Below, piece after piece: positions 25,390 through 44,712 of a DNA stretch of 54,623 nt; within the stretch, counting starts at the first letter, position 1; every line of letters begins with the position of its first letter. The notes under the pieces are model-generated. The model was not told the DNA's origin and made no database searches. It saw only the letters and a program-made list of their open reading frames with translations. This DNA is from Nitrososphaerales archaeon. Lineage in GTDB: Archaea > Thermoproteota > Nitrososphaeria > Nitrososphaerales > CADDZS01. The position numbers and the translations under genes are program-made. Location: the NCBI GenBank assembly GCA_030038075.1, contig JASHPO010000035.1, forward strand, positions 1 through 54,623, in the 5' to 3' direction.

Positions 25390-25860
25390 ATGTCGGTCGA
25401 AGAACAGCAATTACTTATACGACGGATAAAAGACGGGACTGTAATAGACCACGTGAGAGCAGGCGAGGCGCTCAGGGTCTTGCAGATCCTGGGCATCACC
25501 GGAAAGGACGGCGAGATAGTAAGTGTTGCCATGAACGTCCCCAGCTCGAAACTAGGCAAGAAAGACGTAGTCAAAGTCGCTAACAGATTTCTAAAGACTG
25601 AGGAAACTGACAAGCTAGCTCTCGTCGCGCCTCAGGCTACGGCGAACATTATCAAAAACTACAAGGTCTCTGCAAAGCACAGAGTCGAACTTCCTGACGT
25701 GTTCAAAGGAATCTTAAAGTGTCCGAACCCGACGTGCGTCTCAAATCTTGCAAACGAACCAATAATACCCACGATTGATGTCATAGACAAGGAGACGCCT
25801 CTCCTGAAATGCAGATTCTGTCAGAGGCTGATAACGGCTAACGAAACAGTTCTCGTCTAG
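25390..25860 (+). CDS. pyrI: Aspartate carbamoyltransferase regulatory chain
   Basis: IKDGTVIDHVRAGEALRVLQILGI; KCPNPTCVSN...LKCRFCQR zinc domain. Confidence 0.93.
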   Translation: MSVEEQQLLIRRIKDGTVIDHVRAGEALRVLQILGITGKDGEIVSVAMNVPSSKLGKKDVVKVANRFLKTEETDKLALVAPQATANIIKNYKVSAKHRVELPDVFKGILKCPNPTCVSNLANEPIIPTIDVIDKETPLLKCRFCQRLITANETVLV

Positions 25861-27317
25861 CCTTTTACCACGGCAATCGGGGTCAACCGGACGACCTTCG
25901 TCCCGATTCCCACGCTATCGGAGACATCGGCAACGGAATCAACGTCCTTGTAGGCTCCCGGTGCCTCTTCGACAACGCCCTTTTTGCTCGCTGCTTCCAG
26001 CAGGATTCCGCGGGACTCCAGGTCCTGCCTGACCTTTTCGTATGGATAGTTCCTGATTGCAGCTCCGCGGGACATCATCCTTCCCGCTCCATGGGCCGTA
26101 GATCCGAAACTCACTTCCATCGACTTTTCTCTTCCGAGCAAGACCCACGAAGCAGTCCCCATTGATCCCGGAATCAGAACTGGCTGCCCTATTGTTCTGT
26201 AGTCTTTGGGGACAGCCTCATTTCCTTTTGAAAAAGCTCTAGTTGCACCCTTTCTGTGTACAAAGACCTTCTGCTTTTTCTTCGGATTTGCCAAATCAAC
26301 AGAATGCTCCTCGACCTTGCAAATGTTGTGCGCCACGTCATACACCAGTTTCATGTCAAGATCAGACTCGCTCATTTTCATTACTCGTTCGAAAGCTTTT
26401 CGCACCCGTTGCGTAATGATCTGCCTGTTCGTCCACGCATAATTTAGAGCAGAACCCATCGCGAATCTGTAATTTTCGGCTTCTCTAGATCCGGCGGGTG
26501 CGCACGCCAGCTCGCGATCGGGGAGTTCGATCTTGAAATTGGGCGATGCGACGTCGATTATCTTCAGATAGTCGCTACAGACCTGATGCCCCAGACCCCT
26601 GCTTCCGGTGTGCATCAGCACGCAAACCTGTCCGGTTCTCCCAATTCCGAATGTCTGCGCCGCCTCGCGGTCAACCACATTGTTCACTGTCTCGATTTCC
26701 AAGAAATGATTACCGGAGCCCAGCGTTCCCAAGGATTTAGCGCCTCGCTTTTTCGCATCACCCGACACTTTTGAAGAGTCCGAGAGTTTCATCGTCCCAT
26801 TTTCTTCGCAGTGTTCCAGGTCTGACTGGGTTCCATACCCGTTGTTTATTGCCCATTTCGCTCCTTCGGCGAGCACGTTGTCTAGCTGCTGGGTCGAGAG
26901 GTTTAGCGCACCGACGTTTCCGAGCCCAGACGGAACGGCGTGAAACATTTCCTTCACAAGCTCCCTCAGTTTTGGCCGTACCTCTTCTTCGTTCAAGCTG
27001 GTTCGGAGCAACCTTACTCCGCAATTAATGTCGTACCCTACACCACCAGGTGAAATAACGCCCGTCTCGAAATCAGTTGCAGCGACCCCGCCGATCGGAA
27101 AACCATAGCCCTCGTGACCGTCGGGAAGAACTACAACGTGTTTCTTCACTCCCGGCAGAAATGTCACGTTCACAGCTTGATCGATAGTCCGGTCGGTTTG
27201 CATTTTTTCGATCAGCGAATCATTCGCATAGATCGTGACCGGAACTCTCATCCCCGACCTAGCAGTTTGCTCTATCCTGTACTCAACGTCGCCAACTTTG
27301 GTCATTCCAAATTTCAA
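25857..27317 (-). CDS. rtcB: RNA-splicing ligase RtcB
   Basis: VVLPDGHEGYGFPIGGVAATDFETGVISPGGVGYDINCGVRLLRT; HTGSRGLGHQVCSDY; STAHGAGRMMSRGAA. Confidence 0.95.
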   Translation of the reverse strand: MKFGMTKVGDVEYRIEQTARSGMRVPVTIYANDSLIEKMQTDRTIDQAVNVTFLPGVKKHVVVLPDGHEGYGFPIGGVAATDFETGVISPGGVGYDINCGVRLLRTSLNEEEVRPKLRELVKEMFHAVPSGLGNVGALNLSTQQLDNVLAEGAKWAINNGYGTQSDLEHCEENGTMKLSDSSKVSGDAKKRGAKSLGTLGSGNHFLEIETVNNVVDREAAQTFGIGRTGQVCVLMHTGSRGLGHQVCSDYLKIIDVASPNFKIELPDRELACAPAGSREAENYRFAMGSALNYAWTNRQIITQRVRKAFERVMKMSESDLDMKLVYDVAHNICKVEEHSVDLANPKKKQKVFVHRKGATRAFSKGNEAVPKDYRTIGQPVLIPGSMGTASWVLLGREKSMEVSFGSTAHGAGRMMSRGAAIRNYPYEKVRQDLESRGILLEAASKKGVVEEAPGAYKDVDSVADVSDSVGIGTKVVRLTPIAVVKG

Positions 27318-32358: not shown

Positions 32359-34695
32359 GTGGATAGCATGAGCAAAAAATCCGCCGGTAATGCAGATTCG
32401 GAGCAGTTGATGTGGGTTGAAAAGTACCGCCCTCAGAAACTTTCCGAAGTCATAAACCAATCTGAAATCGTTGAGCGCCTAAAGGCAACTGTGAAAAAGC
32501 CCGATGAAATGCCGCACATGCTGTTTGCCGGGCCACCCGGAAGCGGAAAAACTACGGTGGCACTATGCGTTGCTAAAGAAATCATGGGGGACAACTGGAG
32601 GGATTACACACTGGAACTGAACGCGTCAAACGAGAGGGGAATCGATACCGTCAGGGTGAGAATAAAGAATTTTTCGAGTTATTCGGATAGGAGAGAAAAC
32701 ATTCCATTCAGAATATGCCTTCTTGACGAGTCGGATCAGATGTGCCTAGATCCGGAAACAAAGGTTCTCTCCGGTACTCTTGGTGACCTGCACGAAACGT
32801 CTTTGCGGGAGCTATTGGAAGTCAATTCTGACCGCTCGTTTGATCTCCCATCGTTTTCTGGCAGATCCATGCGTGCAGAAAACGATCGCGGCAAAGTCAT
32901 AGTTTCCGGAAAGGCGGATTTGTATGAGATAGAGCTTGAGGACGGAAGACGGATTTCTGCCTCTTCCGACCATCCCTTCTTCATAGTGAACGGCACATCG
33001 ATTAGGACAATCAAGACCAGTGAATTGATTCCCAATGAGACTGTGATAGCAGATTATTCAAACAGATTCTTGCGTTGCTACCAATGCAAACGTATTTTTT
33101 ACCGTCATCATCCTTACAACGTGTACGAGCATTATTTCTGTTCCAAAGAGTGCAGGAACGTCTTCTTCGGTTCTCTGTCGAAAGATAGATCACCTCAGGA
33201 GCGACAACAAATATGGCAACTAGCTCTTAAGGGAATGAAGGATAAGGGCAGTTATACCTCGCCTTCCTATAGAGCGAAACGCTCCGAAATTGCGAAGAGG
33301 CTCCAACATGAAGGGAGGATTTTAAGATCTTCGCGATACAAAAAGGGCGAAGGTTACTGGTTAGGTAAGACACTCAGCGACGAACATAAGTTGGCTATAG
33401 GCAAGGGTACTCAGAAATTCTTCATCGAACATCCCGAAGCGGCCCGCGTAATTGGCGAGAAAGTAAAGATCTCTCTGGCGAGAGAAGATGGAACATATCG
33501 AAAGCTAGTCGCAAGCGGCTTTTTCAAAGAAGCGTCGAGGAAGGCATTCCTAGCCTCCACAGAGTATTGGAAGAGAAACCATTTCAGAAGCAAACTTGAG
33601 GTCCAAATGGCTAGCCTTCTCGACAAGTGGGGAATTCCATACCGCCGTGAACACGTCATATTCCACGACGAAAAAGGGAACGCGTATTCGCTTGTGCTCG
33701 ACTTTCTAATTAAAGAGAGAATCGTGTTACTTGTCCATGGCTGTTGGTGGCATGTTTGTCCAACATGCAGGATCGAGCCAAAGTACGAAAAACAGAGAAA
33801 GAACATGGAGAAGGATGACAAACGTGTTCGCGGGCTCGAGGAAATGGGGTTCAAGGTAGTAGTGGTTTGGGAGCATGAACTGAAGGAAGAAAAGACAATT
33901 CGGGACTCAGTGTTGCCCAGAATCTATGAGACTGTCGGCATAGCAGGCATGAGCTTGCACACGATCAAACACTCAAAAGTCGTGGCGGTGAGAAAAATCG
34001 GAGAGCGTGATGTACTAAATATCTCAGTTGAAAACAATCAATGTTTCTTTTTAGCAAACGGAATACTGACTCACAATACAAACGACGCGCAAACGGCCCT
34101 AAGACGGATAATGGAAGAAAGCTCGAGAACGACCCGTTTCATTTTGACGGCAAATTACAGTTCGAACATCATCGAACCGATCCAGAGCAGGTGCGCAGTT
34201 TTCAGGTTCCAACGACTAACTGAGGCCGATGTAGTATCGTATTTGGAATCGATTTGCAGAAAAGAAGCTATAAAGTTCCAAAAGACGGCTCTATCTACGA
34301 TATTCCAGGCGACCGAAGGCGACCTCAGGCACGCCTTGAACATGCTCCAAGCAGCTTCTAGTTTAGGAGACATTACAAACGAGAACGTGAACAAGGTCAC
34401 GGGACTTTCTGGGAAGGCCAAAGTCTCGGAGGTGATCGAAATCGCCCTAACAGGAGATTTCTCCAGCGCGAGGATGAAGATGATTGAACTCTTGCAGGTC
34501 TACGGAATGTCCGAGCACGATTTCATAAAGTATGCAAACGAAGCCCTCTCAAAATCAGAATATTCCACTTCCTTCGACGCGCTCCAAGCGACTGCCGACG
34601 CAGACTATCGGTTGCTGCTCGGGGCAAATCCCGATATCCAGCTGAGCGCTTACCTCGCGCAGCTCGCCAAGATCGGGAAGCAGCTCAAAAAGTAG
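32359..34695 (+). CDS. rfcS: Replication factor C small subunit precursor containing an intein
   Basis: WVEKYRPQKLSEVINQ; FAGPPGSGKTT; LLDESDQM | intein | TNDAQTALRRIMEESSRTTRFILTANYSSNIIEPIQSRC. Confidence 0.95.
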   Translation: MDSMSKKSAGNADSEQLMWVEKYRPQKLSEVINQSEIVERLKATVKKPDEMPHMLFAGPPGSGKTTVALCVAKEIMGDNWRDYTLELNASNERGIDTVRVRIKNFSSYSDRRENIPFRICLLDESDQMCLDPETKVLSGTLGDLHETSLRELLEVNSDRSFDLPSFSGRSMRAENDRGKVIVSGKADLYEIELEDGRRISASSDHPFFIVNGTSIRTIKTSELIPNETVIADYSNRFLRCYQCKRIFYRHHPYNVYEHYFCSKECRNVFFGSLSKDRSPQERQQIWQLALKGMKDKGSYTSPSYRAKRSEIAKRLQHEGRILRSSRYKKGEGYWLGKTLSDEHKLAIGKGTQKFFIEHPEAARVIGEKVKISLAREDGTYRKLVASGFFKEASRKAFLASTEYWKRNHFRSKLEVQMASLLDKWGIPYRREHVIFHDEKGNAYSLVLDFLIKERIVLLVHGCWWHVCPTCRIEPKYEKQRKNMEKDDKRVRGLEEMGFKVVVVWEHELKEEKTIRDSVLPRIYETVGIAGMSLHTIKHSKVVAVRKIGERDVLNISVENNQCFFLANGILTHNTNDAQTALRRIMEESSRTTRFILTANYSSNIIEPIQSRCAVFRFQRLTEADVVSYLESICRKEAIKFQKTALSTIFQATEGDLRHALNMLQAASSLGDITNENVNKVTGLSGKAKVSEVIEIALTGDFSSARMKMIELLQVYGMSEHDFIKYANEALSKSEYSTSFDALQATADADYRLLLGANPDIQLSAYLAQLAKIGKQLKK
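32743..34077 (+). mobile_element. Intein (445 aa) with Vsr/EDxHD-like endonuclease insert
   Basis: Starts C-LDPETKVLSG; block B GKADLYEIELEDGRRISASSDHPFFIVNG; ends NISVENNQCFFLANGILTHN followed by Thr +1. Insert contains CYQC...CSKEC, NUMOD-like GYWLGKTLSDEHKLAIGKG, and SKLEVQMASLLDKWGIPY...LVLDFLIKERIVLLVHGCWWHVCPTC...KDDKRVRGLEEMGFKVVVVWEHEL. Confidence 0.92.
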
Positions 34696-43116: not shown

Positions 43117-44243
43117 CTAAGACGAACCTTTTCGTCTCTTGATCATTTTCTCGCTTAGCTGGTGCATTTCGTCTATCGCGGCGCTGACGCTCGCTTTCCA
43201 TTCTTCGAGCTCCGCGATTCTTTTCTTGAGTGATTCTACGTCCTGCGATATGACGACCTGCGGACGTGGTTCTAGTATCGTCAGTTCCGATACTTCCTTC
43301 AGATATTCCTCTAGGAGCTCTTTTTCGTCCGGTCGATAGTAGTTGTCTTCGAGACCGAGCGTATGACCTAGAAGCATCTCCACGTGCAGAGACTTCATTT
43401 TTCGCTCGCATACCGTTTTGAAAAATTTACGAAAGCCGTGATCTGCTTGGAATTCGTACCGTTTCTTTCCCTTCTCTAACGTGGTTCTTAGACCCGTAGC
43501 TTTGAGCGCGTCCTCGATCAGTCGCTTGACGCCCGTACTCTTGAGCCGGATTGGAAGGTGAGGCTCGCCCTTCCCTAGATGGTCGGGGTGAAAGAGGTCG
43601 CGAATTAGCGGAGAATTGCTAGTGATTTTCTCGCCTTGCGACCTTCCGTAATCGACGTACTCCTGGATCGCGTGATAGCACTCCGGCGTTATGGAACTAA
43701 AGTACTCTTCCGAAGTCCCCGCGTAAATGCGAATCTTGCCGTTCTCGGAGATATGCCCGTAGTTCAGATAGTCGAAAGCGCCGATACGACAGCTACAAGA
43801 TTCCATTAGCAAGATCACGGGCTTGATTCTCCGGTCTGGGTAGGTTAGAATCTTCTTGATTTCCTCGACCGATGGCGCTCGATCGCTGGCAGCGCGTCGA
43901 CCTTTTGGAACACGGCGGGCTAGCTTTTTCCAATTCAGATTGATGTCGTTTTCCTCACAAAATAGCCTGATCGGCTTGTACATGTTTGCGACGCGAGACC
44001 GGCTATCTCTCCCTTTTCGACCCGCTCCTTTTGCGACTGAATGTAGCCATTGATTTGTATAGTAGCCCACTTTGGGTCTGATTGAGCTTGCAGACAGAAA
44101 AATTTCGCTTGAGCTTTGAATGCTCCCTCGATCTTCAGATAGTCAAAGAATTTCTTGAGGTCAGCTTCGTAGCCACGCCGAGTCTGAGGGTTTCTGATGG
44201 CAGAAAAGAACTCGGTCAATGGATCAAGCTTGAGGGCTTCCAT
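43117..44243 (-). pseudogene. Tyrosine recombinase/integrase, split by a frameshift
   Basis: N-terminal core-binding part in ORF 43935..44243 (FFSAIRNPQTRRGYEADLKKFFDYL...QINGYIQSQKERVEKGEIAG) continues in another frame as RVANMYKPIRLFCEENDINLNW in ORF 43117..44070; catalytic CRIGAFDYL, HGFRKFFKT, LLGHTLGLEDNYYRP. Confidence 0.8.
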
Positions 44244-44290: not shown

Positions 44291-44436
44291 TGCGGCGACC
44301 GGGATTTGAACCCGGGTTACCAGCGCACTGCTCTTGATTCATTTTTGAGAGATTGGCAGGCTGATGTCCTAGACCAGGATCTCCCGCATTTGATCATTCG
44401 TAGTTAAGGGACAAATTGCGTCTAGACGATCGCCGC
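44291..44436 (-). tRNA. tRNA-Gly(GCC) with two introns
   Basis: Exons 44436-44422 (GCGGCGATCGTCTAG), 44376-44354 (TGGTCTAGGACATCAGCCTGCCA), 44325-44291 (CGCTGGTAACCCGGGTTCAAATCCCGGTCGCCGCA). Acceptor GCGGCGA/TCGCCGC, D-stem GTC/GAC, anticodon stem TCAGC/GCTGG and T-stem CCGGG/CCCGG all pair. 37/38 intron has CTGC/GCAG helix with CAA and TGC 3-nt bulges (BHB). Confidence 0.85.
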
Positions 44437-44477: not shown

Positions 44478-44579
44478 CCGAATTTGAAGTTAGATTCACA
44501 CAGATTCCTAGATTTGTAAAACAATCATCTCAGCTGAAATAACACTTTTAACAAGATAAATGAAAAAGAAATTCTACGC

Positions 44580-44712
44580 GGGCCGGTCGTCTAGAGAAGT
44601 CCCTTCCACTTCGGAAAGCCTGGTAGGATACAGCGGTTCTGAAGAGTTTTTCTTCGCTGCATCTTGCACTTTGGCATGGTGGGGGTCCTGGGTTCAAATC
44701 CCAGCCGGTCCA
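44580..44712 (+). tRNA. tRNA-Ala(GGC) with two noncanonical introns (best parse)
   Basis: Exons 44580-44594 (GGGCCGGTCGTCTAG), 44621-44631 (TGGTAGGATAC), 44667-44712 (CACTTTGGCATGGTGGGGGTCCTGGGTTCAAATCCCAGCCGGTCCA). Acceptor GGGCCGG/CCGGTCC including G3:U70; D-stem GTC/GAT; anticodon stem CCACT/GGTGG; loop TTGGCAT; T-stem CTGGG/CCCAG. Confidence 0.75.

Follow-up and report, generated by a model that had tools for sequence, protein, structure and literature searches.

Two predicted non-canonical introns in the tRNA-Ala(GGC) gene of a soil thaumarchaeon

Archaeal tRNA genes carrying two or three introns each have been described in Pyrobaculum and other Thermoproteales, where many of the introns occupy non-canonical positions, intron density is high and the splicing endonuclease is of the (alpha-beta)2 type (PMC4090602, PMC4033280). 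P. calidifontis, for example, has 71 introns in 46 tRNAs (PMC8450103). For non-canonical introns, a relaxed HBh' class of splicing motif has been described (PMC4090602), and an (alpha-beta)2 endonuclease with a Crenarchaea-specific loop has been linked to a broad substrate range (PMC12397907, PMC4090602). Non-canonical tRNA introns were also reported from Thaumarchaeota with tRNAscan-SE 2.0 (PMC8450103), and some tRNAs of Caldiarchaeum subterraneum carry multiple introns (PMC3293823).

The locus studied here lies in a window of 54,623 nt (the whole stretch of DNA that was analyzed) from the genome of a soil thaumarchaeon, G000, which belongs to the genus of isolate SubAcS9-71. This isolate is counted among the heterotrophic terrestrial Thaumarchaeota, with an in-silico growth optimum of 33 °C (35 °C for a sister genome; PMC10640624). 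We are highly confident that positions 44580-44712 hold a functional, single-copy tRNA-Ala(GGC) gene with two non-canonical introns of the BHB type, one of 24 nt at position 15/16 and one of 35 nt at position 27/28. A doubly interrupted tRNA-Ala(GGC) is a known sort of archaeal oddity, and it is well supported here.

The tRNA-Ala(GGC) gene and its splice boundaries

The original prediction had proposed a tRNA-Ala(GGC) with two interruptions, paired stems and the G3:U70 pair, and this was borne out by the sequence and by eight orthologues. Once two segments are removed from 44580-44712 (forward strand), all stems pair around the anticodon GGC, and G3:U70, A73, T33 and a T-loop of TTCAAAT are all present. 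The gene was found in a single copy, and GCC and GCU codons are common, together making up 42% of the alanine codons in eight ORFs of the window. In order, the locus consists of exon 1 GGGCCGGTCGTCTAG, intron 1 AGAAGTCCCTTCCACTTCGGAAAG, exon 2 CCTGGTAGGATAC, intron 2 AGCGGTTCTGAAGAGTTTTTCTTCGCTGCATCTTG and exon 3 CACTTTGGCATGGTGGGGGTCCTGGGTTCAAATCCCAGCCGGTCCA.

Exon 1 (44580-44594) provides the 5' strand of the acceptor stem, the 5' strand of the D stem (GTCT), A14 and G15, and is identical in all eight family orthologues. Intron 1 (44595-44618) was delimited by boundary comparison and by its motif, set against shuffled bodies (p about 0.001). Exon 2 (44619-44631) comprises D-loop nucleotides, the 3' strand of the D stem (GGAT), A26 and C27, and is contiguous with its neighbors in intronless relatives. 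Intron 2 (44632-44666; p about 0.002), which splits the 5' strand of the anticodon stem, is absent from G001, a genome of the same genus, and the orthologous 27/28 introns covary. The rest of the anticodon arm with GGC, the variable loop, the T arm, the 3' strand of the acceptor stem and A73 belong to exon 3 (44667-44712), which is 100% identical in G003 and G006-G008 and whose last 45 nt are also present in G004 and G005. CCA is not encoded at the 3' end. A TATA-like TTTTAA (44546-44551, forward strand), 29-34 nt upstream of the gene, may serve as its promoter; the surrounding CACTTTTAA recurs in G001 and G004 at about the corresponding location.

The gene forms a divergent pair with tRNA-Gly(GCC) (44291-44436, reverse strand), which has introns at 15/16 (44379-44421) and 37/38 (44326-44353). 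This pair is kept in G001 and in six genomes of the same family (G003-G008), with a spacing of 108-207 nt in seven of the eight family genomes and 1.9 kb in G008. Although the tRNA-Ala introns of these genomes vary in presence, position, length and sequence, removal of the predicted introns turns all eight orthologues into an identical 74-mer; none of the 74 exon nucleotides varies among the eight species, in contrast to the divergent introns and flanks. Four genomes (G003, G006, G007 and G008) have the 27/28 intron only, leaving the D loop AGCCTGGTA uninterrupted, and in G001, which lacks the 27/28 intron, GGATAC continues directly as CACTTTGGC. Outside the family but within the same order, orthologues are full-length at 74 nt and intronless in most detected cases. 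The original prediction had suggested a comparison with intronless relatives, and the closest of these, G021, has 93% identity and the same sequence across both exon junctions. The uninterrupted D loop and junctions of relatives and the intronless outside orthologues thus fix the splice sites in G000 without a folding model. Excision restores a canonical, conserved tRNA of 74 nt, whose D loop AGCCTGGTA is the one found in relatives without a D-loop intron. An exact 44-nt search over 84,980 species returned seven contigs only, all matching genomes of the family, including SubAcS9-71.

As originally noted, intron 1 sits at the same D-loop position as an intron of the neighboring tRNA-Gly: both follow GTCTAG and precede CCTGG. 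From this, an intron transfer between paralogues had been suggested, for which the shared position holds, while the sequence similarity is only suggestive. In detail, instead of arising by an independent gain, intron 1 would be a copy of the 15/16 intron of tRNA-Gly (or tRNA-His), brought in by gene conversion or intron transposition, an origin that is compatible with a functional, doubly interrupted tRNA and that we consider conceivable but rather unlikely. The exon flanks match, and the 15/16 intron of tRNA-Gly(GCC) occurs in all eight family genomes (it is absent in the outside relative G034, L049), whereas that of tRNA-Ala occurs in G000 only. Moreover, when 13 introns were compared with intron 1, the three other 15/16 introns examined in G000 ranked at the top, but the individual similarities are weak, with p, uncorrected for multiple tests, of 0.03-0.05 for Gly(GCC), 0.05 for His(GTG) and 0.22 for Gly(TCC), and 15/16 may just be a site where introns insert repeatedly. 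The tRNA-Ala D-loop intron of G001 likewise resembles that genome's own tRNA-Gly intron (p 0.0015-0.003), in a match that spans two stacked introns and is one of nine comparisons. A common origin of the 15/16 introns is possible, but unproven.

Splicing motifs and splicing enzymes

Both introns have 3-nt bulges and a central helix at their exon-intron borders. In intron 1, the inner helix pairs GAAGT (44596-44600) with ACTTC (44608-44612) over 5 bp, and the central helix sets GTCT (44589-44592) against GGAA (44613-44616), where three of four pairs form and the outer pair is a G:A mismatch; the bulges are AG|A and AG|C. In intron 2, a 4-bp central helix of GGAT (44626-44629) and ATCT (44661-44664) adjoins the bulges AC|A and TG|C and an inner helix GCGGT/GCTGC. 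The length, central pairing, bulges and missing outer helix of intron 2 had been predicted correctly, and one more pair brings its inner helix to 5 bp. With an outer exon helix of 0 bp in both cases, neither intron has the strict hBHBh' form, and both predicted motifs belong to the relaxed HBh' class. When the exons were held fixed and the intron bodies shuffled, the motif quality of the 24-nt intron 1 was reached in 0.12% of trials and that of intron 2 in 0.18%.

Seven orthologous 27/28 introns could be compared for covariation. In these, 87% of the helix cells are paired versus 72% in shuffles, 8 cells are changed on both sides, and the covariation score is 0.529 versus 0.264 in shuffles, of which 1 in 500 reaches 0.529. 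Every slid register of the motif scores far lower. Six of the seven lack pairing at the outermost position of the central helix. The 27/28 introns of the family thus usually have an effective 3-bp central helix with an inner helix of 4-5 bp, and by this standard the outer mismatch in intron 1 is unremarkable.

Three solutions with two deletions yield the conserved 74-mer, and only the combination of 44595-44618 and 44632-44666 has a good BHB motif at both introns; the other two boundary sets, in which an inner or a central helix is lacking, were rejected. The original prediction had placed the second segment exactly, but had ended the first at 44620 instead of 44618, giving a mature tRNA of 72 nt where the conserved 74-mer calls for 74. 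A 26-nt intron 1 with a 72-nt product, or an intron 1 with otherwise shifted ends, is very improbable: the 72-mer also pairs in all stems, and D-loop length varies between tRNAs, but the 26-nt motif is no better than shuffles (matched by 56% of shuffled bodies), and C16 and C17, present in the family orthologues, would be dropped. The BHB motif of intron 1 had accordingly been called weak, an impression that came from the wrong 3' end and does not apply to the 24-nt version.

In thermodynamic folding of the whole precursor, the central helix of intron 2 has a probability of about 0.99 and the motif of intron 1 of about 0; for the latter, dominance is predicted only while the nascent transcript is limited to its first ~45 nt. 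With ViennaRNA the mature 74-mer fails to adopt a cloverleaf, and the precursor result therefore counts for little. For the same reason, a splicing order derived from folding energies was discarded as uninformative. The ordered splicing suggested in the original prediction is not required for the tRNA-Ala of G000, as the two motifs share no nucleotide and could form side by side; an order is implied instead in three relatives (see below).

The exon strand of each central helix (GTCT at 44589-44592, GGAT at 44626-44629) is a future strand of the D stem, and the D arm would thus form only after splicing. In each 3-nt bulge, an endonuclease of the (alpha-beta)2 type would cut between the second and third nucleotides; RtcB would then join 44594 to 44619 and 44631 to 44667, giving the 74-nt tRNA with its G3:U70 alanine identity pair.

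Candidate enzymes for these steps are encoded in the genome, which contains two EndA-family genes. Crenarchaeal catalytic subunits (2cv8, E 4e-40; 3p1z_B, E 2e-38) can be aligned to the 183-aa product over the active-site Tyr, His and Lys, and K39 of this product lines up with K44 of 3p1z_B. The 3p1z structure is that of the enzyme from A. pernix, and K44 is the lysine in its loop, presumably linked to relaxed substrates. The 237-aa product aligns with EndA, lacks the His and looks like a beta subunit; a catalytic and a structural subunit together imply the (alpha-beta)2 type. A gene for the tRNA-splicing ligase RtcB is located in the window at 25857-27317 on the reverse strand (PF01139, E 6.9e-172). 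As judged by gene presence, the host thus has alpha and beta EndA-like subunits with the conserved loop lysine, as well as the ligase. The tRNA-splicing enzymes of the cell very probably remove both introns. We infer transcription, cleavage and ligation of this tRNA-Ala and assembly of the endonuclease subunits.

Copy number and intron turnover among relatives

ARAGORN made zero tRNA calls on the whole window and so missed the gene, as did a whole-genome Rfam tRNA search. The only Rfam match on the locus was a spurious one to tmRNA (RF00023) at 20.3 bits against a cut-off of 47, attributable to the acceptor and T arms; with a score below the gathering threshold, a tmRNA identity was rejected. 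A second, intact tRNA-Ala(GGC), which the original prediction had named as evidence that would count against it, was sought in the draft MAG and none was detected. This MAG is 85.9% complete with 5.04% contamination, and an intact copy could therefore sit in the missing part. It is nevertheless extremely improbable that the locus is a decayed pseudogene with two random insertions while another tRNA-Ala(GGC) does the decoding, a reading that fits the failure of three tRNA finders and the imperfect central helix of intron 1, but not the zero exon substitutions among eight species with divergent introns and flanks, the lack of a detected second copy, or the location of both segments exactly where splicing motifs form. 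We regard a tRNA gene missed by the finders run here as settled, with splice sites obtained from comparison and not from folding.

Across the eight relatives, tRNA-Ala has introns at four sites: 15/16 (G000 only), 17/17a, 27/28 (seven of eight genomes) and 28/29. At 17/17a, G004 has a single intron (CTAG CC|T ... CTAG AA|T), and in G001 a first intron (CTAG CC|A ... CTAG AA) would be followed directly by a second one of 39 nt (CTAG AA|A ... ATAG CT|T), with an exon of zero nucleotides between them. In G004 and G005, a 28/29 intron lies one nucleotide past the 27/28 intron, leaving C28 as a 1-nt exon, and its motif draws on the 3' end of the 27/28 intron (TCGA AC|A). The loci concerned are L039 (G001), L042 (G004) and L043 (G005).

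A single-intron reading of G004 and G005 was rejected, as no one deletion yields the 74-mer in either genome; in G004, with its D-loop intron, two deletions would not suffice. For G001 a single deletion would suffice, and the stacked reading has the better motifs. One 70-nt intron at 15/16 was here replaced by stacked 17/17a introns, which give the exact 74-mer and share the site of G004. An alternative parse of G001 with three introns, in which the 74-mer has CT in place of CC, received about the same score, and the stacked parse is preferred, not proven.

Since the introns of G001, G004 and G005 abut, the downstream one would have to be removed first, implying an obligate order. The principle is already known, as the authors of tRNAscan-SE 2.0 describe introns so near to each other that one must leave before the motif of the next can form (PMC8450103). 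No mention of one-nucleotide tRNA exons turned up in the literature searched, which is no proof of novelty. Separately, the tRNA-Arg(TCG) gene at L077 apparently contains two directly abutting D-loop introns and a third intron.

With its mature tRNA invariant and introns gained or lost at four sites among close species, this gene amounts to a small natural experiment. As a speculative possibility, less likely than not, tRNA introns in this soil family of predicted mesophiles may be gained at a high rate, by insertion into or beside splice junctions already present and into a D-loop site that is hit repeatedly, giving stacked introns 0 or 1 nt apart with a fixed order of removal. If true, intron gain could be traced inside one genus, and turnover of this kind in predicted mesophiles would speak against the view that heat adaptation drives intron-rich tRNAs.

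Interrupted tRNA genes in the genome and in known systems

Two other features of the window were recorded. The Replication factor C small subunit gene (32359-34695, forward strand) contains an intein (PF14890, residues about 147-573), and a stretch of the insert resembles Vsr-type endonucleases by eye. A 317-aa ORF (43117-44070, reverse strand), separated by about 220 bp from the tRNA-Gly 3' end, resembles tyrosine recombinases on visual inspection. It had no Pfam match, and a search near tRNA-Gly for a tRNA-derived direct repeat found none; an integration-site reading was therefore rejected.

A partial census of the tRNA genes of G000 was compiled from T-loop pattern matches and Rfam matches (loci L058-L098). 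Interruption was called by length, as more than 86 nt from acceptor to discriminator, and individual introns were not placed in several genes (e.g. L060, L065, L091 and L094). By this measure 28 of the 30 resolved genes are interrupted, with lengths of up to 218 nt. In a predicted mesophile, this is more interesting than the tRNA-Ala gene itself. When draft genomes of this kind are judged by their tRNA counts, these will be too low unless introns are allowed for. The lineage is also useful for testing how relaxed splicing endonucleases let tRNA introns spread.

With this share of interrupted genes, the lineage presents itself as a soil counterpart of Pyrobaculum. It resembles Pyrobaculum and other Thermoproteales in that single tRNAs hold two or three introns, often at non-canonical positions and with relaxed HBh' motifs, the endonuclease is predicted to be (alpha-beta)2 and intron density is high (PMC4090602, PMC4033280). 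Unlike the hyperthermophile Pyrobaculum, the present host is a soil thaumarchaeon from a genus with a predicted optimum of 33-35 °C (PMC10640624). Positions 15/16 and 27/28 are absent from the example intron positions in PMC4090602, a list that is open-ended. The thaumarchaeal introns reported with tRNAscan-SE 2.0 come from the same phylum and are of the same kind, but the share of interrupted tRNA genes in G000 is far above that implied by the archaeal average of 0.21 introns per gene (PMC8450103). In Caldiarchaeum subterraneum, too, introns interrupt the D, V and T arms, and some tRNAs hold several; there, 13 of 45 tRNA genes are interrupted (PMC3293823), as against 28 of the 30 resolved in G000.
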